64,000 bases of DNA, taken from positions 1 through 64,000 of the forward strand of contig JAIRRJ010000067.1 in assembly GCA_031256035.1 (NCBI GenBank), given 5' to 3'. The notes beneath the pieces are model-generated. The model was not told where the DNA came from. It did not search any database and saw only the letters and a list, made by a program, of their open reading frames with translations. The first letter of the stretch is position 1. Every line of letters starts with the position of its first letter. A program made the position numbers and the translations under genes. This stretch comes from Treponema sp. (GTDB lineage: Bacteria > Spirochaetota > Spirochaetia > Treponematales > Breznakiellaceae). This document shows, piece by piece, positions 5,913 through 44,276 of this stretch.

Positions 5913-6932
5913 CTAAAATCTATACCCTACCGCCAATTTTGCGGTTAAACCGGATTCCCCATAGGAGAGATCCATGCCGAATAATACCCCAAATCTGAGG
6001 AATACATTATCGGTAAAATAAAAATCCGTGCCACCGCCAAGTTTAAACCATAAGGCGCTAAAATCACCGAGGTCTTTTACTTCTTTGCCTTTATAATAAT
6101 GAGCAAGGGCAATATCATACTCAATGCCCAAAAGCGGAAAAACAGAAAGGTTGTCATTAATCCAAAAAGGGTATTTTCCCAACAAGCTGATATCCAAATT
6201 AGTTGTTGAATAATCCTTCCATGTACTGCTGCCGATACCGAAAGAAATTTCAGCATAAGTTAAATCCAGAAAAGCGTAACCTCCGAATTTAAGACCGATG
6301 TCAAAATCACTGCCGAAAAATCCGCCAATACCGGTGCTGATTCCAAAATCCGTTTTGTCCGAATCCCCTTCCGACTTTGTCCTTGCGGTTTTATCAGGTT
6401 CTACTCTTTCTTTAACAGAGGTAATACCGGTAACAATGGTATTCCCGTTAGCAGTTGTTACAGTGATTCCCCACTTTTCAGAGGTTTTGAGCGTAGCTTC
6501 ATCCATAGTGCAATTAATATAGAGTGTACCCCCATAGTTCACTGTAATCAGATCAGGTTGAATTCCCAACAAAAGCTGCGTTTTTAGACCGGGAAACTTT
6601 TGGCTCAAACCTGCTATAAGTTCGTCTGCTTTAATTCTGCCTCCTTTAGAACGAACTAAATCAGAAGCAGCCTTAAAGATTCCCTGTGAAGTTTCTGTCT
6701 CTGTTAAACTTATTTTAACGGAGGCAATGTCCGTTACAATTGATTTTCCTCCTTTGCCTCCGCCCATAATAGAGTTAATGAAGTAACTCTCGCCCTGATA
6801 GGTAAAATAAATAGCACTTCCTTGAATTGCAAATAAAAGCGGCTTTTTCAGACCCGGAAACTTTTTGCCCAACTCTGTTAAAAGATCATCCGCCTTAATC
6901 TCGCCGTTTTGTGAAACTAATTCAGAAGCTGC
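5913..6932 (-). pseudogene. C-terminal part of prophage-split outer-membrane beta-barrel protein
   Basis: 337 host-derived codons (from Ser at 6926) remain in frame; upstream the frame runs into phage end sequence. The first part contains one and most of a second copy of a ~95-residue module (AASELVSQ...FPGLKKPLL and AASDLVRS...FPGLKTQLL), then a beta-barrel region with alternating aromatic residues, ending KLAVGYRF with a C-terminal Phe typical of outer membrane proteins. The missing 5' part is at 43936-44276: joining them at the shared AGCTGC restores TSKAIFEAASELVSQ, which parallels TSQGIFKAASDLVRS of the second module. The intact protein would have about 451 residues. The remnant has no signal peptide and is probably not exported. 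Confidence 0.88.
6927..6932. other. Prophage target-site duplication, left copy
   Basis: AGCTGC, repeated at 43935-43940. Mu-like elements duplicate five bases, so GCTGC (6928-6932 and 43936-43940) is the likely duplication and the sixth base may be chance. Confidence 0.75.
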
Positions 6933-7020
6933 TGTCAATTCTCGCCAAAATTGAACCCGATTTATAACCGAAATTGATATTTTTAGCGGGGCTTAGCGAA
7001 CCTTACCGGGGCTTAGTGAA
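6933..7020. repeat. Left prophage end: transposase-site-like and direct repeats
   Basis: The phage starts TGTCAATTCTCG. At 6962-6976 the minus strand reads CAATTTCGGTTATAA; the right end has CAATTCTGGTTATAA on the plus strand at 43891-43905 (13/15 identical, 29-30 bp from each end, inverted). Farther in, CGGGGCTTAGYGAA occurs twice with a 20-bp period (6987-7000 and 7007-7020). These are candidate transposase binding sites. Confidence 0.7.
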
Positions 7021-7026
7021 ACTAGA

Positions 7027-7371: not shown

Positions 7372-7660
7372 CCAAAGCCTTCTCTGTGTCGTCGTCCGTG
7401 TCCAGAATGTATTCAGCGAGAGAATACCAGGGGATACGGTAGATGATTCCGATTGAAAGAGCGTCCATGCGGTAAAAGTGAATCAGATAATCCATGGCGT
7501 CGCGAGAAATAGATAAAATGCCGCAGGCTTCTTTGATTGTGTAGGTGTACCGGGCGCCAAGGCGGGCGGCTTCGACAATGCGGCGCAGTGAGGCTTCTCT
7601 CTGGACTGGAGAAAGCGTGATGCGTAATTCCGGGAGTTCAAAGAGTTCGCCGCTCCGCAT
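7337..7660 (-). CDS. Prophage DNA-binding protein, excisionase-like
   Basis: 107 residues. Central sequence YTIKEACGILSISRDAMDYLIHF resembles a MerR/excisionase-type helix-turn-helix; the C-terminal part IPWYSLAEYIL resembles the wing of such proteins. Its ATG overlaps the GemA stop (TAATG). It is probably a small regulator in the middle-gene position where Mu carries mor, but it does not look like Mor itself. Confidence 0.65.
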   Translation of the reverse strand: MRSGELFELPELRITLSPVQREASLRRIVEAARLGARYTYTIKEACGILSISRDAMDYLIHFYRMDALSIGIIYRIPWYSLAEYILDTDDDTEKALDEYIQSRYRAA

Positions 7661-8067
7661 TATTTTCGAACCCCCTCTTGCTCAAGGCGGGTCAGGAAGC
7701 CGTGGCACTTGCGGATTTCAAAAGGCGAGAGATCATTCACTGACTTTTTGCCGAACTTGCGGATAAAACCGCCGAGTCGCTTGTCCGCATTAGGGCCGAG
7801 TATGCGCTCAGCTCTTTTTACCAGCGGGTATACATCTCGGGAAACCGGCGGCAAAGATCCGCCAAAAATTGTTTTTCCCTGGGCAATGAGTAGGTTATTA
7901 AGCGCGGTGATCACGTCGGAAAATTGTTGAATAGTTTCCAAGTACAATGAAGACTGAACATTAGCCGCGCCCATGAGGATGCAGATGTAGGTTTCGTCAT
8001 CAATACCGGCGAGGGTCTTTTGGGTGTGGATGAGTTTAATCATTTTCTGTTTCTGGATTTCGGTCAT
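7660..8067 (-). CDS. gemA: GemA/gp16-like regulatory protein (DUF1018)
   Basis: 135 residues. The N-terminal MIKLIHTQKTLAGIDDETYICIL closely follows the DUF1018 pattern (K-x-IH-x-x-K-x-x-L-x-x-DDETY), and the C-terminal RLGGFIRKFGKKSVNDL also fits. Family knowledge: Mu gp16/GemA is an early-region protein found in most Mu-like phages, reported to affect host gene expression. It lies in the distal early operon as expected. Confidence 0.85.
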   Translation of the reverse strand: MTEIQKQKMIKLIHTQKTLAGIDDETYICILMGAANVQSSLYLETIQQFSDVITALNNLLIAQGKTIFGGSLPPVSRDVYPLVKRAERILGPNADKRLGGFIRKFGKKSVNDLSPFEIRKCHGFLTRLEQEGVRK

Positions 8068-8949: not shown

Positions 8950-9831
8950 TCAACCTAGTTTCCCGATCATTTCGGGGGTAACGGTGGCGATGCCGGAGGC
9001 GCGGCCCATGCGGGCGAGTGCCAGGGCGTCGTTGACTAATGAGCGCCATGCGCCGCGGGAGCGTTTGGCGAGTGCTTCGGCGGTTTCGAGATCGATTTCG
9101 ATGCCGCAGGCGAGGGCGTAGTAGGCGGCGATGTCTACGGCGCCGACTGAATCGTAGAGGACGACGGGACGGCGTATGCGGGAGCGGAGCCGGGGGACGC
9201 GGTCAATTTTGCTTTTGAGGGCTTCTTCGCCGGCGAGGAGCACCGGCACCTTGCAGCGCTCATTGATACCCCGTATCAATTCCAGGAAGGCGACCGGCAT
9301 TTTGTCAGCCTCATCAATAATGATGAGCCGGCGGCGGTTGTCGCAATGTTCGTGGATAAAATTAAGGCAGTTGCCAAAGGTGATCGGGCGGACATTGGCG
9401 AGGGCTTCGCAGATGTCCCGCAGGAGCTGGACGCAAGTAGATTTTTCGATGAATAGCACATAACATGCGTCCTCGTGGGTTTCGGCGTACCAGCGTGCTG
9501 TGTGGGTTTTTCCCCGCTCGGCGGTTCCGATGACCATGCCCAGGGATGAGCTTTGCGAACCTTCAGGATCAGAGAGGTCGTCGGCGAGGGAATTAAACGC
9601 GGCGACAGAGCGGGTCGGTATGACCACGTCCGTATCGACCGTGAACTCGTCGGGTACAGTTTTGGTGTATCCCTTCTCTTTGAGAAGCGCGATATATTCT
9701 TCTTCCTTTTGCTCCCAGGCAGGGTAGGTCTGGGAGCATATTTTTGAAACTGTGCTTTTGTCGCACCCGAAAATTTTGGCGGCTTTGCCGAGGGACAGCC
9801 GGTTGGCTGTCAGGATTGTCCGTAAACTCAT
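8950..9831 (-). CDS. MuB-like AAA ATPase (transposition target protein), TnpB
   Basis: 293 residues. An N-terminal helix-turn-helix (residues 10-35, SLGKAAKIFGCDKSTVSKIC) precedes an ATPase core with Walker A GTAERGKT (102-109) and Walker B IIIDEADK (about 170-177). Family knowledge: MuB-type ATPases bind target DNA, activate the transposase and give target immunity. The gene overlaps tnpA by four bases (9828-9831). It appears intact, unlike tnpA. Confidence 0.92.
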   Translation of the reverse strand: MSLRTILTANRLSLGKAAKIFGCDKSTVSKICSQTYPAWEQKEEEYIALLKEKGYTKTVPDEFTVDTDVVIPTRSVAAFNSLADDLSDPEGSQSSSLGMVIGTAERGKTHTARWYAETHEDACYVLFIEKSTCVQLLRDICEALANVRPITFGNCLNFIHEHCDNRRRLIIIDEADKMPVAFLELIRGINERCKVPVLLAGEEALKSKIDRVPRLRSRIRRPVVLYDSVGAVDIAAYYALACGIEIDLETAEALAKRSRGAWRSLVNDALALARMGRASGIATVTPEMIGKLG

Positions 9832-10961
9832 GCTAATACTCCTTTTGGTTTGTTTAGTCTGAATTGGCTGGCGAAGTAGGCTTCTTCCTCGTCATCCATT
9901 CCTTCTTCGTATTCCGCCATGAACGCAAGGTCGGCGGCGGAAATCTTTTGGTTATTGCCCAGCGCTATGCGCAATGATTCGTAGCGGTCGCGGGGCGTAA
10001 GGTAAACCAGCTTTGACCGTTCGCGGATGTTCGGCTCGACGGTGATTTTTGCGGCGATGGCGGCGCTGAATTCTTCAGGCGTCATTGCCGGGCTTTCCGG
10101 CGCAGGGAGGCTTGAGGTCTCATTGCGCGTGGTGGGAAGGTTCGCCGCGGCGGCTTTCGCTTCGCGTAACTCGCGGAATTTGTCCGGGTCAAAGAGCATT
10201 TGCGCGCCGCTTGTCATGGTGTTGTAGGCTCCGGTTACCGCTTTCATGTTTCCGCGCTTCTGCTCTATCGCTGCGGACGTGGCTTTTTCGTCAAGCATCG
10301 GGATGGGCGTTACCGGCGTGAGGGGTATTGCCTCATTGGTGCGCGGATCGATTGCCCAGATGCCGTACGGAAGGCGGGTGCGCATGTCCAGCCAGAGGTA
10401 GCACTCCGGCCTGAAATAGACGCCGTTCTCGTCTGTTACCCAGAAGTCGAAGCGGTGCTGATCGCCGACTACGATTTGGAAGGGGCGCAGGCTCGACAGG
10501 TCGCGGGCGATGTAGAACAGGTTGTCCAGGGCGCGGCTGCCGCCTTTGACATAGAGTTTGAGCATCGGGTGGATTGCTTCCCGCGCGTGGACGTACGCCG
10601 ATTGTTCGGAGCCGATCTTCCAGCCGTTTTGCGCGGCCATGAGCGCGGTCTGTTTATAGGCGTTGCGCACCGTACATCGCCCTGCTTCACGGGTTACTTT
10701 GAGGAAAAACATTTTGAAGAAATTGAGCGCTTCGTTATCCCATGCCACAAGCGGCCGCATAGCGGTTTGTTTCGGCTGATAGCCGTTGGTGTCGATGTAG
10801 CCGATATAACGCTTGACCGATGAAACCGATACGCCGTGTTTGCGCGACAGGTTTTCGTACGCCATGTTTAGCGGCTGCAGCGCGTTGCGGCATTTCCAGT
10901 CATGGTGCACGGCGGCCATTTTGGACAGCTTTGAGCCGGACGCGAAGAGGGTGGCGTTCAT
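9828..10961 (-). CDS. MuA-like transposase TnpA with internal catalytic-core deletion
   Basis: 377 residues against about 600-700 in the family. The N-terminal DNA-binding part is present, as is the start of the RNase-H-like core with the first catalytic Asp (VVGDQHRFDFWV, Asp167) and LWLDMRTRLPYGI. At about residues 200-206 the sequence jumps in frame to AIDPRTNEAIPLTPV, which corresponds to the beta-barrel/C-terminal region of family members. The segment carrying the second Asp (usually TDNG) and the catalytic Glu is missing, so the protein should be unable to cut or join DNA. The C-terminal part is otherwise in order and overlaps tnpB. A DNA-binding role may persist. Confidence 0.85.
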   Translation of the reverse strand: MNATLFASGSKLSKMAAVHHDWKCRNALQPLNMAYENLSRKHGVSVSSVKRYIGYIDTNGYQPKQTAMRPLVAWDNEALNFFKMFFLKVTREAGRCTVRNAYKQTALMAAQNGWKIGSEQSAYVHAREAIHPMLKLYVKGGSRALDNLFYIARDLSSLRPFQIVVGDQHRFDFWVTDENGVYFRPECYLWLDMRTRLPYGIWAIDPRTNEAIPLTPVTPIPMLDEKATSAAIEQKRGNMKAVTGAYNTMTSGAQMLFDPDKFRELREAKAAAANLPTTRNETSSLPAPESPAMTPEEFSAAIAAKITVEPNIRERSKLVYLTPRDRYESLRIALGNNQKISAADLAFMAEYEEGMDDEEEAYFASQFRLNKPKGVLA

Positions 10962-11728: not shown

Positions 11729-11842
11729 TTACCCCCCATTGTTCCTGCCCTGCGCGTATTTCCATGCGTCAATAAAGTCTCTACGGGTTATTTTTCGTTT
11801 GGCGTAACGGCGTATGGCAAGATAAAATAATTTGAAGTCCAT
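11729..11842 (-). CDS. Small basic prophage protein (37 aa)
   Basis: A 37-codon ORF not requiring any unusual start: ATG 11842 shares its A with the gam stop (TGATG), and GAAGGAG lies upstream within gam. The product (MDFKLFYLAIRRYAKRKITR, then RDFIDAWKYAQGRNNGG) is basic and probably helical. Its stop precedes the next gene by three bases. Tight packing in the operon supports it as real; function unknown. Confidence 0.65.
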   Translation of the reverse strand: MDFKLFYLAIRRYAKRKITRRDFIDAWKYAQGRNNGG

Positions 11843-12354
11843 CAGGCTACCTGCTCCTTCAGCAGTTCCTTGTTGACTTCTTCCTTGTCTGCCTCGCAGA
11901 AGAAGTCGTCTTTGATTTTCCGAACCGAATCGACCTGCGCCAGGGTGTCGTCGTCAAGGTCGGCCATCGCTTCCTTGTCCGGCTCTTCCTTTGTGCGGAT
12001 ACATTTGATCAACTGCAATTTTTTTAACAGTTCGAGCGTTGTTTTTTTAACGCTGATTGACGTGCTTTTCCGATAGCCGAAACTTCCAAAGGAAAGCTGG
12101 ACGCTCTTGCGATCCTTGAAGAGTTCGTCCCGGTTATAGTCGGCGTACGCCCCGATCCGGGCGGAAGCGTCAACGATCCGTTTGCGGATAACTCCGCCTT
12201 GTTTGGCCGCATCTTCCTTGATTTCGGCAATCTGCTTGTGGGCTTCATTGTCGATGCCCTCAAGCTCCCTCTCCAGCAGGCCAATTTCCTTAAGAACCAT
12301 GTTGGCCTGATCCAGAGTTTCAATTTTCCCCATTTGCGGTTTTAACCTTGCCAT
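11842..12354 (-). CDS. gam: Gam-like host-nuclease inhibitor protein
   Basis: 170 residues from ATG 12354 (GAGGGGGAATAAC upstream). The sequence fits Mu Gam: long helical N-terminus (ANMVLKEIGLLERELEGIDNEAHKQIAEIKEDA), then a short beta part YRKSTSISVKK and a helical tail. Family knowledge: Gam binds double-strand DNA ends like Ku and protects them from exonuclease. It starts two bases after the previous stop. Confidence 0.88.
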   Translation of the reverse strand: MARLKPQMGKIETLDQANMVLKEIGLLERELEGIDNEAHKQIAEIKEDAAKQGGVIRKRIVDASARIGAYADYNRDELFKDRKSVQLSFGSFGYRKSTSISVKKTTLELLKKLQLIKCIRTKEEPDKEAMADLDDDTLAQVDSVRKIKDDFFCEADKEEVNKELLKEQVA

Positions 12355-12355
12355 G

Positions 12356-12868
12356 TTATTCCCCCTCTTCAATGTCGATATACTCAAACCCGTACGGGTC
12401 GAGAAAACGGTTTGTAAGTTCCACAACCGCGCGGTTTTCGGCGAGCGATTCTTCTGTGCCTTCGTTGTGGAATTGCGCCAGGCGGGCGATGTAATAACGG
12501 AGTGCTTCAGGAGCCGCGGTAAACAGTTCGGTAAGATCGAGGCTGTCTACCGGCGGCTCGATGTAGACAACCGGGATGTGCAGGTCCTGCGCCAGCTTGA
12601 GTTCAATGGCCGCGCCTTTTGACTTTTGCCAGCCCTGCAGGAGGGCGATGCCACCGCAGTCTGCTAATTCACGGACGCAATCCCGCATTGCCTTACGCCA
12701 ATCGCTGTCAGGCGAACAAAAGCGCAATGGGTTGGATATGACGTAAATAATTGAACGCCCGCTGTTTTTCATTGCCCGGCGGATTGTTTCTTCTACCGAA
12801 AGAAAATGCCCGGCGGTTTCTTTGATTGTCCTGCCGGATACCGGCCCGCATAGATAAATGCTTTTCAT
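12356..12868 (-). CDS. DUF4406/nucleoside 2-deoxyribosyltransferase-like protein
   Basis: 170 residues. The N-terminal MKSIYLCGPVSG and, later, LADCGGIALLQGWQKSKGAAIEL match the DUF4406/nucleoside deoxyribosyltransferase-like fold (nucleotide-binding GPVSG loop; GA-x-E element). The C-terminal half is unrelated and variable. Possible role in phage nucleotide metabolism; substrate unknown. It overlaps the upstream gene by four bases. Confidence 0.78.
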   Translation of the reverse strand: MKSIYLCGPVSGRTIKETAGHFLSVEETIRRAMKNSGRSIIYVISNPLRFCSPDSDWRKAMRDCVRELADCGGIALLQGWQKSKGAAIELKLAQDLHIPVVYIEPPVDSLDLTELFTAAPEALRYYIARLAQFHNEGTEESLAENRAVVELTNRFLDPYGFEYIDIEEGE

Positions 12869-14218: not shown

Positions 14219-14404
14219 AGTATGCCTCCTTCAGTGGTGGTTAGAGAGGGATGTCAATCGGCCAAGATAGGGCATCTCTCTCTTTATCATTTTTGGCTAA
14301 GTTGTATTTCCAACTTGCCGATAATTCGATTAACGACCAGAAATATCGAACATGTCAAGTGGAAAATTCGATATTTCTCAAATATTTTTTTTGGGGGAAA
14401 ATTT
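14219..14404. promoter_or_regulatory. Immunity control region between Ner-like gene and repressor
   Basis: 186 bp between divergent starts. It holds a perfect 12-bp inverted repeat, AGAAATATCGAA (14339-14350) and TTCGATATTTCT (14367-14378); on the minus strand a TTGACA (14358-14353) lies in the space between the arms, followed 18 bp later by GTTAAT, a plausible leftward early promoter. At 14299-14316 is AAGTTGTATTTCCAACTT, whose 14-bp core recurs twice inside the repressor gene in reverse orientation. These are candidate operators for the repressor and Ner. Confidence 0.7.
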
Positions 14405-15154
14405 ATGGATTGGGCTGACAAGATACGATGTATCGAAGTAGAAATGGGAATAGAAAACGATAGGGGAAAGCTTGCCAGCCTTTTAGGTGTCAGACCTGGT
14501 ATTATTTCAGATATAAAGAAAGGAAATTCAAAAAACCCAGGTTCAAACATTACCTTGCTTTTGATTAACAAGCTAGGAGTGAACCCCAAATGGCTAGAAG
14601 GGGAAAATCAGCCCATTTTCTTAAACAAAAAAAGGTTGGAAATACAACCTAATGAAGAAAAAATTTTGCATGAAAAGGTTGGAAATACAACCTCAAAAGG
14701 CCACGGCGGCATACCCCTTGTTTTTGAAGGAGACAAAGAATTTGAGGGCGGGATTATTATTCCCGTGCTGGGGGATAACCCAGTGTCCGCCGGAAATGGG
14801 GCGGGCATTGGCGATGAGGAAATACCCACGCGATTCATTCACGCCCCAAAAGAATTGGCAAAATACCTTCACCTTATCAGCCTGCCGGTCAGGGGCGACA
14901 GTATGGACCCCACCCTGCATGACGGCGACATGGTTGTCTGCGATGGGAGCGGTTGGGACGGCGATGGGATTTACGTCATAAAAACGGATGAAGAAACCTT
15001 TGTAAAAAGGGTGCAATATACCTCGGCAGGGTATCGAATCGTGAGCGATAACCGGATGTACGAAAGCTACACCGAGGATGTTGAAAAAATCGCCGTTGTG
15101 GGCAAAGTGCGAGCGGCGGTTGTAATGATGCCAGGAAGGCGAGGAGGAGTGTGA
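14405..15154 (+). CDS. Prophage repressor with LexA-type (S24) autocleavage domain
   Basis: 249 residues from ATG 14405, after GGGGGA. N-terminal helix-turn-helix at about residues 15-70 (KLASLLGVRPGIISDIKKG...LGVNPKWLEG). The C-terminal S24 domain has Ser166 (RGDSMDPTL) and Lys201 (FVKRV), the catalytic dyad, and a likely cleavage bond Ala129-Gly130 (PVSAGNGAG). Family knowledge: such repressors hold lysogeny and self-cleave on RecA activation after DNA damage. The linker region contains two copies of an 18-bp palindrome that also occurs in the control region. Its end overlaps the next gene (TGATG). Confidence 0.9.
   Translation: MDWADKIRCIEVEMGIENDRGKLASLLGVRPGIISDIKKGNSKNPGSNITLLLINKLGVNPKWLEGENQPIFLNKKRLEIQPNEEKILHEKVGNTTSKGHGGIPLVFEGDKEFEGGIIIPVLGDNPVSAGNGAGIGDEEIPTRFIHAPKELAKYLHLISLPVRGDSMDPTLHDGDMVVCDGSGWDGDGIYVIKTDEETFVKRVQYTSAGYRIVSDNRMYESYTEDVEKIAVVGKVRAAVVMMPGRRGGV
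14633..14650. promoter_or_regulatory. Candidate intragenic operator, copy 2
   Basis: AGGTTGGAAATACAACCT, a 6-bp inverted repeat (AGGTTG/CAACCT). Core GTTGGAAATACAAC is identical to the third copy and to the reverse complement of 14301-14314. It codes R-L-E-I-Q here. Confidence 0.6.
14676..14693. promoter_or_regulatory. Candidate intragenic operator, copy 3
   Basis: Second intragenic copy of AGGTTGGAAATACAACCT, 43 bp after the first and in a different reading frame (V-G-N-T-T), so its conservation is at the DNA rather than the protein level. Confidence 0.6.
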
Positions 15155-26933: not shown

Positions 26934-27037
26934 TCGCCCAATTTTTCTTTGTTCAGTTAGTGGTGCCGCTGCTTGTGCCGTCCGTTTTTTTTCTTATCGG
27001 GTATTTATTCAATTTATATTCTAAGGAGGGATCATGA
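26930..27037 (+). CDS. Small TM protein in lysis cassette (35 aa)
   Basis: 35 residues from ATG 26930, overlapping the previous stop (ATGA) and preceded by GGAGG. One TM segment, QLVVPLLVPSVFFLIGYLF. Its stop overlaps the start of the next gene, so translation appears coupled. Possible holin accessory or antiholin; no family recognised. Confidence 0.62.
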   Translation: MIAQFFFVQLVVPLLVPSVFFLIGYLFNLYSKEGS

Positions 27038-27447
27038 ATGAAAAAAATCGTTTTGTTCTTAATCTTGCTATCGTTATTGTCGCCGTCATTTCTGTCGGCG
27101 CAATCGGCTTCTTCATTGGGAGAGGAAATCTACAGCGACCTGCTCAACTTGCAGATGTTGATAGACGAATTGAATTCGCGCTTGAAGAAAGTAAACGAGA
27201 GCTTGAACAGGAGCGAGCAATCAGTAACGGACTTAGGGCTGTTAGGGAACGAGAAAGATCTGTTATTGACGGAATTGCAGAATCTACTCGACAGGCGCGA
27301 ATGGACACTCAAGCAGCTATCAATGCTGGTGGAGGAGCAGCAGACAGCCTACAAAAAATCATTGTTCAAATGGAAATTTACAACCGTTACGTTGGCAATA
27401 TCGAGCGTCAGCTTGCTGAGTATAGCGATCTACCAGGGGCTGAATAA
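27034..27447 (+). CDS. i-Spanin-like protein, overlapping pair member A
   Basis: 137 residues from ATG 27034; AGGAGGG five bases upstream. N-terminal TM anchor FVLNLAIVIVAVISVGAIGF followed by a long charged periplasmic coiled coil (DRRIEFALEESKRELEQERA...GIAESTRQARMDTQAAI) and a short end. This is the classic Rz/i-spanin layout, in a lysis cassette. Nearly its whole length is overlapped in the +1 frame by member B (27038-27451). Confidence 0.65.
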   Translation: MNEKNRFVLNLAIVIVAVISVGAIGFFIGRGNLQRPAQLADVDRRIEFALEESKRELEQERAISNGLRAVRERERSVIDGIAESTRQARMDTQAAINAGGGAADSLQKIIVQMEIYNRYVGNIERQLAEYSDLPGAE

Positions 27448-27451
27448 ATAA
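27038..27451 (+). CDS. Spanin-like secreted/membrane protein, overlapping pair member B
   Basis: 137 residues from ATG 27038, four bases after member A's ATG, sharing its ribosome site. Sec signal MKKIVLFLILLSLLSPSFLS with a plausible AQS cleavage, then coiled coil (DLLNLQMLIDELNSRLKKV; LLLTELQNLLDRREWTLKQL) and a C-terminal TM segment TTVTLAISSVSLLSIAIY. No lipobox Cys, so not a standard o-spanin. Its stop overlaps the start of the protease gene (TAATG). Both frames of this stretch look like real proteins. Confidence 0.65.
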   Translation: MKKIVLFLILLSLLSPSFLSAQSASSLGEEIYSDLLNLQMLIDELNSRLKKVNESLNRSEQSVTDLGLLGNEKDLLLTELQNLLDRREWTLKQLSMLVEEQQTAYKKSLFKWKFTTVTLAISSVSLLSIAIYQGLNK

Positions 27452-29837: not shown

Positions 29838-30215
29838 ATGCCGGAAACAATTATAACCACAGATGACCTCAAAAAAGAATTGACCGCGCAGGATTACGGC
29901 ACTTTGTCGTTTGACGATGCGGCGGTATCAGAGCGGGCAATTCAAAAAGCGGTAATCTGGGTTTACGGCAAAGTCAAATCTACCGGGAACGATTACAACG
30001 AAGAAAACGAAGTGATCCGCGACATCGTGCTTAAACGCGCGGTGTATGAGTTGTTTTCATACATCGGTCAGGAAAGCCGGGCCAAGATGAAAGAAAAGGA
30101 TGCTGCAGACCTCATCGAAACCTATTTCGGCAGCATCAGCACCAAATATAACGAAGGCCCCGGCCCCGCCGCCGGCGCTGTTTCTGTAGCGGAGATTCCC
30201 CCGTATGGGAGTTAA
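29838..30215 (+). CDS. Head-tail connector (Mu gp36-like, DUF1320)
   Basis: 125 residues. TTDDLKKELTAQDYGTLSFDDAAVSERAIQKAVIWVYGKVKS and the helical AVYELFSYIGQESRAKMKEKDAADLI fit DUF1320 head-completion proteins. The position after the capsid agrees. Starts at ATG 29838 after GAAGGA. Overlaps the next gene by 11 bases. Confidence 0.82.
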   Translation: MPETIITTDDLKKELTAQDYGTLSFDDAAVSERAIQKAVIWVYGKVKSTGNDYNEENEVIRDIVLKRAVYELFSYIGQESRAKMKEKDAADLIETYFGSISTKYNEGPGPAAGAVSVAEIPPYGS

Positions 30216-30839
30216 GGTTATATCGCGCCCGCCGGATTACGCGGCGCGGTTTGGCGCTGGCTTGGCTCCTACGATGCGCAAGGTTTCAATGTATTTACAA
30301 AGCAGCGCAAATAAAAAAATCAACGCGGGTATCAGCCCGGCAAACGCGCCGTTGACGCAGGAGGTCAAGGGCGGCAGCCAGACCCTGCGTGATATGGGAA
30401 CGCTGGCGCAAAGCATCGCGCCGCATTCCGGCGATTTGTGGGCGGACGCTTCACTAACTTGGAATACGCCCGCGTTTTGCAAGAGGGTAAAGTTATTAAC
30501 GCGAAAAAAGCGTCTGGCCTCTGGATTCCGGCAAGCGCGAAAACGCGGCAGCTTATGCGCCAATACAACGCGTGGACTCCGGGGCGGCTCATCATGGCGC
30601 TGCGGGATGCCGGTTACGCCGGTTACAAAAAGGGCAAAAAGTTTGTCGTGTACAAAAAAGGCAGGGAATTGAAAAGCGGTAAACGCGGCAAGAGGGGTGA
30701 GGAGATCGACCTGTTTATTATCAAAAGTTCGGTAGAAATAAAAGCGCGACCGTTTTTATACATTGACGACAAAGACGAAACGTTTTTGATGAAGCTGGTA
30801 CAGGACGGCGTGATGAAAGCGCTGGGAGGGAAATCATAA
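30205..30839 (+). pseudogene. Virion morphogenesis protein (Mu gpG-like), frame-broken
   Basis: The first frame (start 30205) reads TMRKVSMYLQSSANKKINAG...TLRDMGTLAQSIAPHSGDLWADA, the Phage_tail_S pattern, to about 30446. The family sequence continues in the -1 frame: FTNLEYARVLQEGKVINAKK...SGLWIPASAKTRQLMRQY to 30839. One extra or missing base near 30440-30450 splits a gene of about 211 codons. No classic slippery site is seen, so mutation or sequencing error is favoured over recoding. Needed for head-tail joining in relatives. Confidence 0.72.
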
Positions 30840-36450: not shown

Positions 36451-36848
36451 TGTACGGATGGGTGAAAAAATATATCGGCATCCCCTTTGTGTCCAACGGC
36501 AGGGCGATGGAAGGTGCGGACTGCTACGGCCTTGTGCGATTAGATTTGCATAACGAATTCGGAATCTGCCTGCCGGAACTGTCAAACGATTACGAAAACG
36601 CATTGAACGTAGCTGAAACGGCGAAACTTTTTGCCTCTCTTCGCCCGCTTCTTGCCGGTCTTAAATTACAGTGTCCCGAAGAAGGCGCTGTCGCCGTTAT
36701 CACAGAACACGGCGTACCGGCCCATATCGGCATTGCTGCCGGCAGCGGGTATATCCTGCATACCGGCGTAAAAACAGGCTCCGTCTGCCAGAGGGCGTCC
36801 CACCCAGGCTTGCGGGGCCGCATTGAGGGGTACTACCGTGTCAGTTAA
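36450..36848 (+). CDS. NlpC/P60 tail-tip peptidase (lambda K-like)
   Basis: 132 residues from ATG 36450 (TGATG overlap with the previous stop). Catalytic Cys25 in EGADCYGLVRLDLHNEFG and His92 in VPAHIGIAAGSGYILHTG, with a following polar position. Family knowledge: cuts peptidoglycan cross-links for DNA entry and assembles the tail tip. Between L- and J-type genes as in lambda. Confidence 0.88.
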   Translation: MYGWVKKYIGIPFVSNGRAMEGADCYGLVRLDLHNEFGICLPELSNDYENALNVAETAKLFASLRPLLAGLKLQCPEEGAVAVITEHGVPAHIGIAAGSGYILHTGVKTGSVCQRASHPGLRGRIEGYYRVS

Positions 36849-39800
36849 CGTTATCGCGGAATTAAGCCCGCACCGGCCTGCCCGTACAAAACTCGTTGTT
36901 GAATCAAAACCAATCGCGGATATAATCGCGGAGCTTAACTCCGGCTTCCCGCTCTCCCAGGCGCGGGTCTGCCGTAACGGCGAAATAATAAAAGATTTTT
37001 CGCTAACGGCAAATGACGGCGACACGCTGTGGATCAAATTCGTACCCTATGGCGCCGGCGAGGGGATGAAGGCCGGCGGCTGGGCGCTCATGATCCTTGG
37101 CGCCGTTGCCATAGGTCTGTTCGGCTGGACGGGCATCGGCGGTTTTGCCGGCACCGCGCTAATCGGCGCCGGGCTCTCAATGGCCCTGGGCGGCACAATC
37201 TTAATGAATGTCAGCGCCCAGCCATTCAAAGACAGCGAGAAACCTAAAAACGATCCTTCAATCCGCGGCGGGAAAAACCAGGCAAGGCCGGGCGGAAGGA
37301 TACCCGTCCTCTTTGGCCGCCACAGGCTCTACCCCGACCTCGCGGCAAACCCGTATACGTGCATCATCGGCAATAGCCAGTACTATACCCAGCTCTTCTG
37401 CGGCGGTTACAAGGATTGCTCCATCGACCTTTCAAGCTTTAGGCTCGGCGAAACGCCGCTGGTGCAATTCTCCCGCACAAAGGACATCAAAGCAATCCTG
37501 TCCGGAGGCGACCCGGTTGTCAGCATGGAAATACTCCAGAACGGCGAACCTTCAAGACTGTACCCGTTCTGCATCCATGAAGACGCCATTAACGCCCCGC
37601 TGCAAAATAAAATTGACGACGGGGACGGCAATAAAATACCGGGGGAAGTAATCCGCACCACGCCGGATAAAACCGACAGGATCAATGTTGACGTCTTTTT
37701 TTATAACGGCATCGGCAAGTACAACGATGACGGCGGCCTCGTGCCTACAATGGTGGAATTAAGGGCATCCTACAGAAAAACAGGCAGCTCCACATGGCTG
37801 GTATTTTGGCAAATCACTATCTCCGCATCAGGGCTTAAAACAAAACGCTATCAGGCTGAAATGCCCGGCCTTCCTCCGGGCCAGTACGATGTTAAGATAG
37901 AGCGCGTAACCAAAGACTCAACCGACAGCAAGGTCATCGACCAGGCGCACGTCGGCTCCATACGCTCGATTAAGTCAAAGCTCCCCGATGATACCCCGGT
38001 GCGGCCTGTCAGCGCCGAGCGGCAAAAAGATTTGACTATCATCGCATTGCGCGTAATGGCAACTGGGAAACTTAACGGCGTAGTTGACTCCTTCAATTAT
38101 GTGGCAACTTCAAAACTGCCGGTATACGCCGGCACGGGCTCCGGAGCTCTATACTGGCTCAATTCCGCAGAAACGCGCAATCCCGCGTTGATGCTCCTTT
38201 GCGCCCTGCGCGGGCGCGCCGCCCAGGAACAGGCCGATCCGGGCGACATCGACTGGGAATCTTTTGAGCGCTTCTACCTGTGGTGCGAAAAGCATAAATA
38301 TTACTGCGACGCATATCTCTCTGAATCCGTTACTATCGCAGAACTCCTGCGGATGATAGGCGGAACAGCCCGCGCGGACGTTCTGCGCATCGATTCAAAA
38401 ATATCCGTAGTGCAGGACATTGAACGGCCAAGCCCCATGCAGTTGTTTACCCCGAAAATACCAAGGGCTACAGCGTTACGATGTTCAACGCCGATGCCCC
38501 CGACGCCATCGCCCTGCGCTTCATTGATGAAAAATCAGGTTACGCGCAAAACGAGCTGGAAGTTTTTAACACGCCGGACGGCAACAAAGGCAATGCCGAA
38601 CCGGAAACTATTCAAAAAGCCGACCTATGGGGCGTTACAGGTTCTGTGCAGGCGCGCCGTATCGGCATGTACAACTATGCCTGCATCAAAAACCGCCCCT
38701 TTGTGCATACCATCGAAGCAGACATCGAATACCTACTGTGCAACAAGGGCGACTGGATACAGTACGCCGGAGACCTCGCCCTCACCGGCGCCGCGCAGGG
38801 GCGCATAACAGGGCTATTTTACAACGAAGGCCGCTGCGTGGGCATCCGCGTTGACGAGCCGGTCGGGATGGCGCCAGAAAAACAGTATGCCGTGCGCCTG
38901 CGCCGATCTGACGGGGCTATACAGTTAAAAGACGTTGCGGTAATTAATGAGCCGGATGAAATCTATTTCACAGAGCCTTTCCCCGCCGCCGACATTCCAA
39001 AAACAGGCGACATTTACGCTTACGGCATCCGCGGGCAGGAAGTTATCGACCTCATAATAACAGACATCGCGCCGCAGGCTGATTTGTCCGCTGCCCTGAC
39101 CTGCGTTGAATACAGCCCCGCGATCTTCGCCGTTGACGATCCCAATTTTATCCTGCCCGAATTTGACAATAAAATTACCCCCGTTTCAGGCGCAATTGAT
39201 TCAGGGCTTATAGGCATTGCCGCATGGAAACTCTTTGTTACTTACCACGACGATGAGGAGGAGCCGATGCGGCCTCAAGGGGATGGGCAGGAAAACGGCT
39301 GGCATTACGCGCATACGTCCCAGGCGCTATGGCAGTCCTCCAAAATGGCGGAATCTGTCGACTCCGGCGAATGGGGGAATCCGGCGCGCATCAAAGCCGA
39401 GAGGGGCAATGCCAACATAACCGCGGTGTACCTTGCCCTTTCGCCGCAATCAAAAATTCTTGAGACCGACAGCGAAGGCAGCCTCCTTGCAGGGCTTTTG
39501 CCTTTCACCGTAACGGCGGAACTGTTCAAGTGGAGTTATAAAATCCCAATCACCAGCGATATTGTCAGGTTTCCGGGAAGCGGCGGCGATTTATTCGATC
39601 CCATGCTGGGGGATTTCCTTCCCACGGATCGGGACATTGAATTTTCGCTTGTTGACGCGCCAAGCGGCGTAACAATAAATCAGGAAGGTCTTATCACTGT
39701 TGCCGCAGACGCGGAGCTTGAGGATGAGCACAGCATAACCGTGCAGGCGGAATATGAGGGCGGAATATACACGCAGATACTTTTTATCCAGGTGAAACAA

Positions 39801-40751
39801 CGCGCCGGAGAAGCGCGGTATTTGGGGACAATCGACACGCTGCCGGAAACGCCGGAAGTGTTTATCCTCAAAGGCCCGATCCTGGGCCGCGTCCGCGCCC
39901 TGCAGGGGGACTATGTTCTTGCTGTCGCGGACGGCACGGTAGGCAGCCTTGTCTGGAAAGCCGGAAGGGTTTACCGGTGGGGCGGGATCGCGTGGGAGTA
40001 CCGAGAGCCTGAGCGTTACTCGGAACTGTATATCCGATGCTTCAAGGACGGGCTTGCGGTAGAAGGCTTGAAAAAAGACATGGAATGGTTCGGCGCGGTT
40101 TTTGCTGAACTTATTGTCGCCCAGAATGCGTTTATTGAGAAACTTCAGACGCAGCTCATCGAACTGCAGGACGGCGGGGCGATACAGAGCAAAAATTACA
40201 ATTCCGGTTCGGCTGGGTTCCGCATAGAAGGCAATACCGGCGATGCGGAATTTAATAAATTCACCGCTAGGGGAGATTCGTTTTTTTATGGCAATATAAT
40301 TTCAGGGCCGGTAATTATTTCTAACCAAATTGTGGGAACAACAGCAACGCCGAAAACATTTACAATTGGGCAGAACGCCAAGGCCGTGTGCGATTATATG
40401 GGGATTGGGGTTTTTGGAGTGACTTCTACAGCAGCAAGTTTTGGCGGCAGGGCTTTATCTGTTATAAAAACATTCAAGGATACCGTAATTTCAACGGGCG
40501 TTGGTTTGCCTACCTATATTGACCGCTGGAATGTTGAAATGACATACGCAGAAACACGCAATACAATTACACGGAGCTGGGCTGATTATTCAGGCGGCAG
40601 AAACACTCTAGGCTCGGAGCTTGTAATAGGCGGGGCAAAACCAGGAAAAACATTTATAATAGCTGATCTGCCCGAAAGCAGAAACCTTGTTGCTACAGGG
40701 CAGGTGTACATAGACGTAGCCAGCGAAACATTAAGAATTAGGCGAAACTAA
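36838..40751 (+). pseudogene. Tail tip/host-specificity protein J-like, frame-broken
   Basis: Starts at GTG 36838 with GAGGGG upstream. The first frame has an I-like N-terminus (AGGWALMILGAVAIGLFGW; GGKNQARPGGRIPVLFGRHRLYPDL) and J-like middle until about 38449 (SPMQLFT). The family sequence then continues in the -1 frame from PENTKGYSVTMFNADAPDAI to 40751. Adding one C to the C4 run (38450-38453) restores about 1304 codons. The C-terminal part is a fibre with a cadherin/Ig-like stretch and trimeric-looking tip. As it stands, host binding should be lost; homopolymer sequencing error is possible. Confidence 0.82.
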
Positions 40752-43793: not shown

Positions 43794-43935
43794 TTTTGCC
43801 AAACTAAAAGATTATTTTTGCCAAACTGCGTGTGCGGTTACAGCAGCAGAAAAGCAGGGATCATCGGTTAATTTTATATTTTATTTGTGTCAATTCTGGT
43901 TATAATTCTTGGGTCATTTCTGGGTATAAATAATA
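43794..43935. repeat. Right prophage end: transposase-site-like and direct repeats
   Basis: TTTTGCCAAACT occurs at 43794-43805 and 43815-43826 (21-bp period). CAATTCTGGTTATAA at 43891-43905 mirrors the left end; ATTCTTGGGTCA and TTTCTGGGTATAAA continue the series up to the end at 43935. Confidence 0.7.
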
Positions 43936-44276
43936 GCTGCCTCAAAAATTGCCTTTGAAGTTTCTGTTACACCCTTTGTGCTTTCATCACCAGCCGCAGC
44001 ATTGGCCTGTGCGTTTTCCTGCACAGCCGCAGCGCCGGCATTGATAATTTCAGTAGTGCCGTTCTCGTACTTGATAGAAAGCACCCCTGCTATGGGAATG
44101 ACCACTGTAGGCCCGTCCAAATGATTATGACGCTTGTACTTTATCTCCTGAGGAGTTATCTCCAGCACTTTTGCCTCAATAGTATTCCCGTCTTTCATGA
44201 TAATAAGGTCTTGCGCGGCAACGGAAATTATCCCCGCAAAGAAAAACACAGCAACAATAAATCCAAACTGTTTCAT
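43936..44276 (-). pseudogene. N-terminal part of prophage-split outer-membrane protein
   Basis: 114 host codons from ATG 44276, then phage sequence adds IIYTQK and a stop (43914). Sec signal MKQFGFIVAVFFFAGIISVA with an AQD-type end, then LIIMKDGNTIEAKVLEITPQ and YKRHNHLDGPTVVIPIAGVL, a small beta domain often found in Bacteroidota and Treponema surface proteins, then Ala-rich linker and TSKAIFEAA, which joins to SELVSQ at 6926. The truncated product could still be exported. Confidence 0.88.

Follow-up and report, generated by a model that had tools for sequence, protein, structure and literature searches.

A Mu-like prophage of a Treponema-related bacterium, probably grounded by an in-frame deletion in its transposase gene

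The 64,000-nucleotide stretch of Treponema sp. DNA analysed here (contig JAIRRJ010000067.1, positions 1 to 64,000; hereafter the window) carries a Mu-like prophage whose transposase gene, tnpA, is 267 codons (801 bp) shorter through an in-frame deletion at 10360-10365. We consider it very probable that a Treponema-related gut bacterium here carries a recently grounded prophage, one that could transpose only with help. Loss of the transposase is an ordinary route by which prophages become stranded, and the present prophage adds a clear example, the cause of which can be read unusually well: a single in-frame deletion at a short repeat, the prophage ends and target repeat being intact. No report of a Treponema Mu-like prophage with this deletion was found in the open-access literature searched.

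A transposase without most of its catalytic core

The tnpA remnant (9828..10961, minus strand) starts with ATG and encodes 377 residues, comprising an end-binding domain, a stub of the catalytic core and a C-terminal domain. Its sole retained catalytic residue is D167, in the motif VVGDQH (codon at 10461..10463, minus strand). The protein matched phrog_310 (phage transposases; E 3.6e-21), over profile positions 125-317 only, and the Mu transpososome structure 4fcy (E 1e-5). Within residues 74-148, the Pfam domain HTH_Tnp_Mu_2 scored 19.1 bits, just under its cut-off of 20.5 bits. Overlapping tnpA by 4 bases is tnpB (8950..9831, minus strand), which encodes a complete, MuB-like AAA+ ATPase of 293 residues that aligned to its relatives across 1-292 or 1-293 (2-292 in one relative). 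The two genes, adjacent and overlapping, match phrog_310 and phrog_296 and show the order expected of a Mu-like prophage, with an AAA+ ATPase gene after a MuA-type transposase gene. Judged by its sequence, the remnant is a MuA-family protein.

To define the deletion, we read 11 relatives base by base (L001-L009, L052 and L053), taking as edges the codon for Gly in YG(I/V) and its counterpart ahead of (W/Y/F)A(I/V)(D/E). The spacing between these edges was 801 bp in nine relatives, 807 bp in one and 798 bp in one, and is 0 in the window, where the protein reads ...LPYGIWAIDPR... across the join. In the numbering of the intact relative L006 (635 residues), residues 202-468 are absent. A search with the window protein yielded 72 related loci (47 on viral contigs and 25 on genome contigs), and each of the 72 carries the full set of D, D and E at the catalytic columns of the HMM alignment, although they cannot be counted as independent (L003 and L080 come from a single 23,332-base contig), one (L095) is divided over two frames and 8 of the 72 frames are cut by a contig end. 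The window has the first D only. D167, D232 and E309 are invariant in a 23-sequence alignment of intact relatives. As the search peptides came from the retained N- and C-parts only, deleted forms were not selected against. A relative was present in 10 of the 146 genomes searched, including the window's own; six of them (G005, G044, G083, G091, G117 and G120) have both parts on one contig with intact spacing (coordinates read by eye). Of the other three, G015 and G016 are interrupted by contig ends and G062 has just the C-part.

With the missing segment went two of the three catalytic residues (the second Asp and the Glu), most of the RNase-H-like core and all but a little of the beta-barrel; the Pfam domain Mu-transpos_C, found in L006 (409-476) and in L001, is absent from the window protein. 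The remnant thus has neither the DDE triad nor the core and barrel of an active MuA-family transposase. An earlier note on this DNA had described a 377-residue TnpA that retains its first Asp and lost the second Asp and the Glu in frame at 10340-10375, an interval that contains the join, and a TnpB that looks complete. The alignment with related transposases that it proposed bears out each of these points.

The same note had named a family of naturally short transposases as the finding that would speak against a deletion. We give almost no credence to the remnant belonging to such a natural, core-less group of MuA-like proteins. It does match phrog_14727 (409 positions, function not known) at 3.5e-8, but in intact relatives that profile continues beyond the join, to profile position 350, so phrog_14727 is not core-less. 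No short form occurs among the 72 related loci, all of which have the core residues, and degenerate and exact searches across the join found the same join or the same DNA in 0 viral contigs. A candidate second lesion, REAIH in the window where close relatives read REIH, was rejected, as the insertion is common in the family: 42 of the 72 rows passing over this place carry an insertion relative to the model, the window included (41 of one residue and 1 of three).

AlphaFold models built from family alignments gave a predicted structure for the remnant and for L006. The L006 model has a pLDDT of 87-92 over 161-220 and places the barrel strands at about 412-483. In the remnant model, pLDDT is 85-94 over most of 11-140 and falls to 41-61 in the core stub (161-210); helices are predicted at 225-250 (82-92) and 323-370 (70-88). 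The top Foldseek match of both models was the Mu transpososome (L006, E 5.7e-18 over 530 columns; remnant, E 8e-4 over 202 columns), with low TM-scores to whole transpososome chains (0.13-0.45), perhaps reflecting domain arrangement. The remnant also matched the Mu I-gamma domain 2ezh (TM 0.78 by target, E 0.22), which, with the sub-threshold HTH_Tnp_Mu_2 hit, points to a retained end-binding domain. Structure prediction, which the earlier note had also proposed, therefore suggests an unfolded catalytic core beside a folded end-binding domain. In MuA, as far as the available text of PMC3362531 describes it, I-beta and I-gamma bind the ends, II-alpha holds the DDE residues D269, D336 and E392, and III-beta makes the MuB and ClpX contacts. 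The remnant probably still binds phage ends but would be unable to cut or join DNA.

Prophage ends and gene content

The prophage spans 6933-43935 (37,003 bp), its ends having been located via their repeats. The left end (6933..6978, plus strand) starts TGTCAATTC and the right end (43889..43935, plus strand) finishes AATAATA; each has two binding-site-like repeats, those on the right in inverse orientation. Copies of the target repeat GCTGC lie immediately outside, at 6928..6932 and 43936..43940 (both plus strand). The insertion site is inside a host gene, and joining the host flanks restores a frame, AIFEAASELVSQNGEIKADDLL (AIFEAASELVS), that is similar to a repeat found in the host ORF 5913-6938. 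In two relatives the ends are arranged alike, each prophage being flanked by a 5-bp repeat of its own (GTACG and ATAGC, read by eye). The ends had been thought to look complete, and these features agree. Matched ends and a 5-bp target repeat indicate that the prophage arrived by transposition. An intact transposase, its own or a helper's, would have inserted it, with grounding coming after insertion.

All three prophages for which both ends were observed start with TG, finish with TA and have target repeats of 5 bp (positions 6933 and 43935 here; L076, L077, L078 and L079 in relatives). We rejected the idea that TA is a mutated CA: two relatives also end in TA, which is thus the normal end of the group. 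The right end of G149 (L074) was looked for and not found. Leptospira prophages are reported to have TG-CA and TA-TA ends and 6-bp repeats, and whether TA-TA occurs elsewhere is posed as a question in the available part of PMC8705779. The present ends establish where the prophages of a Mu-like group in Treponema-related bacteria begin and end, with termini TG...TA. Just inside the left end, at 6983-7022, are direct repeats with 10-base spacing (TTAGCGGGGC, TTAGCGAACC, TTACCGGGGC and TTAGTGAAAC).

The gene content is also Mu-like. A Gam-like end-protection protein (11842..12369, minus strand) gave a strong match, and a GemA-like protein (7660..8067, minus strand; phrog_286) a weak Pfam match. 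Terminase, portal, capsid and tail genes are present, the portal and terminase being Mu-type head genes, and the length of 37,003 bp agrees with the 37-38 kb or so expected of a Mu-like transposable prophage. A CI-like repressor gene (phrog_4; 14222..15154, plus strand) is divergent from the transposition block. Two ORFs, 27034-27447 and 27038-27451, overlap almost fully in different frames and are both open in G147 too, an arrangement like that of nested lysis genes.

Two virion genes have frame breaks. The neck/tail-completion gene (30205..30839, plus strand) is broken near 30453 and is a single frame in the relative G147; the J-like central tail gene (36823..40751, plus strand) is broken near 38450-38480, where G147 and G149 are unbroken. 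These breaks may fit a prophage starting to decay, one that looks defective beyond transposition, but as base-call errors are possible they are weak proof of decay.

Origin of the deletion

The join is marked by GGCATC (10360..10365, minus strand), which, to judge from the relatives, was common to both edges of the missing 801 bp; the DNA at the join is TACGGCATCTGG. GGCATC is found at the left edge in five relatives (L004, L006, L007, L009 and L052) and at the right edge in two (L003 and L053), and most relatives encode Gly-Ile or Gly-Val at both edges in one frame (YGI on the left, SGI on the right). A perfect GGCATC on both sides occurs in none of these 11 relatives; compared in register, the two edges are identical over at most 6 positions (L001), followed by 5 (L006 and L053). 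An ancestral repeat of 6-7 bases would be consistent with these edges. The earlier note had suggested looking for short direct repeats at the join in intact relatives, and GGCATC at either edge, in the same frame, is such a repeat. Slippage between short, in-frame direct repeats at both edges accounts for the clean join and the preserved frame. In the mechanism we propose, replication or repair machinery would have slipped between two Gly-Ile-coding repeats of 6-7 bases, removing 801 bp in frame. The nearest prophage relatives found are about 80% identical in portal and TnpB, not close enough to date the deletion.

It is highly unlikely that the join is a library or assembly artefact and that the bacterium carries an intact gene. 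The host assembly is a draft of 120 contigs (completeness 94.9%), the closest relatives on genome contigs are MAGs named Treponema, and the two other frame breaks in the prophage could be base-call errors. But a search of the assembly with an intact relative as query (E up to 10) found no copy of the missing segment, the frame is clean on either side of the join, and a repeat of 6-7 bases should be far below any usual assembly word. Nor was another MuA-family member found among the 120 contigs; one phrog_310 match, on contig C12, was rejected as a family member, its 259-residue frame being read by eye as an IS-type transposase. As the assembly is a draft at this completeness, a helper transposase could be missing from it.

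Consequences for the prophage and comparison with known elements

With the second Asp, the Glu and most of the core lost, the prophage would be unable to transpose or replicate unless a related phage supplied a transposase. The earlier note had called it probably locked in place. That description holds for autonomous movement, as the lost residues suggest, but not in an absolute sense, because the intact ends would still be a possible substrate for a related phage. A prophage otherwise in place that has apparently lost its mobility function is what the term grounded denotes.

We asked whether the remnant has drifted since the deletion. In trees of nine phages, the tip branch leading to the window measures 0.226 in the tree of retained TnpA parts and 0.154 in that of TnpB (ratio 1.5; five close relatives, 1.3-3.8). 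Within a close set of six, among positions that are invariant in the other five, the window differs at 9 of 135 in the N-part, 8 of 72 in the C-part and 17 of 209 in TnpB. By neither measure was clearly faster evolution of the remnant than of TnpB seen, suggesting that the deletion is recent or that the remnant is still constrained or used.

The second possibility bears on a different reading, which we consider unlikely: that the remnant is a selected, dominant-negative transposase that binds the ends of its own and related phages, enters or obstructs transpososomes, and may contact TnpB via its C-terminal domain, silencing the prophage and protecting the cell from related phages. The earlier note had raised a dominant-negative protein of this kind as a possibility. 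The start codon, the frame and the tnpB overlap are all retained, as are the repeats at the prophage ends; the end-binding helices are predicted to be folded and the C-terminal helices partly so; and the retained parts evolve no faster than TnpB. However, this form is a single copy in a single genome, present in 0 of the 72 related loci, and shows no sign of selection. One in three deletions stays in frame by chance, and here the in-frame repeat accounts for the frame. Two virion genes are broken as well, as general decay predicts. With the beta-barrel mostly gone and the core stub not predicted to fold, assembly into mixed complexes may fail. We find it decidedly unlikely that the core-less transposase is a phage-encoded immunity factor that sits on the ends of related transposable phages, and perhaps on TnpB. 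If it were, a grounded prophage would shield its host by both repressor and transpososome poisoning, a phage counterpart of the Drosophila KP element.

KP and other internally deleted Drosophila P elements have an internally deleted transposase gene while the ends of the element remain. The prophage, too, has an internally deleted transposase gene and retains its ends; the remnant's frame is kept and its end-binding domain is predicted to fold. KP offers a precedent for a dominant-negative role (PMC6917496), but it is multi-copy and shown to inhibit, at least as partly described in PMC6917496, whereas the remnant is one copy in its assembly and occurs in 0 of 72 related loci.

The preferred reading, a grounded prophage, has precedents of its own. 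Mutation of a recombinase is a described route to grounded (cryptic, defective) prophages, which, in the available sections of PMC6379469, have lost recombinase function, keep complete ends and cannot leave, as here. Compared with the grounded E. coli prophages DLP12, e14, Rac, CPZ-55 and Qin, as outlined there (PMC6379469), this case involves a MuA-type transposase and a single in-frame deletion. In incomplete prophages more generally, transposase genes are enriched, not lost, a large share being IS transposases, according to the accessible part of PMC7744054. With MuA and the Leptospira prophage TnpA, as partly described in PMC8705779, the remnant shares the I-beta/I-gamma end-binding region, the first-Asp region, the C-terminal helices and an adjacent AAA+ TnpB, and it is without the enhancer-binding N-terminal domain, as that text reports for Leptospira TnpA. 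It differs from the MuA family in having neither the second Asp nor the Glu and little of the beta-barrel, and is therefore not an active member.

As a natural core-less MuA-family protein, the remnant could serve to ask whether such remnants poison transposition. The Tn5 inhibitor protein is a transposase variant that acts without catalysis, a functional regulator made from a second start in the same gene; the TnpA remnant, in contrast, arises from a lesion.
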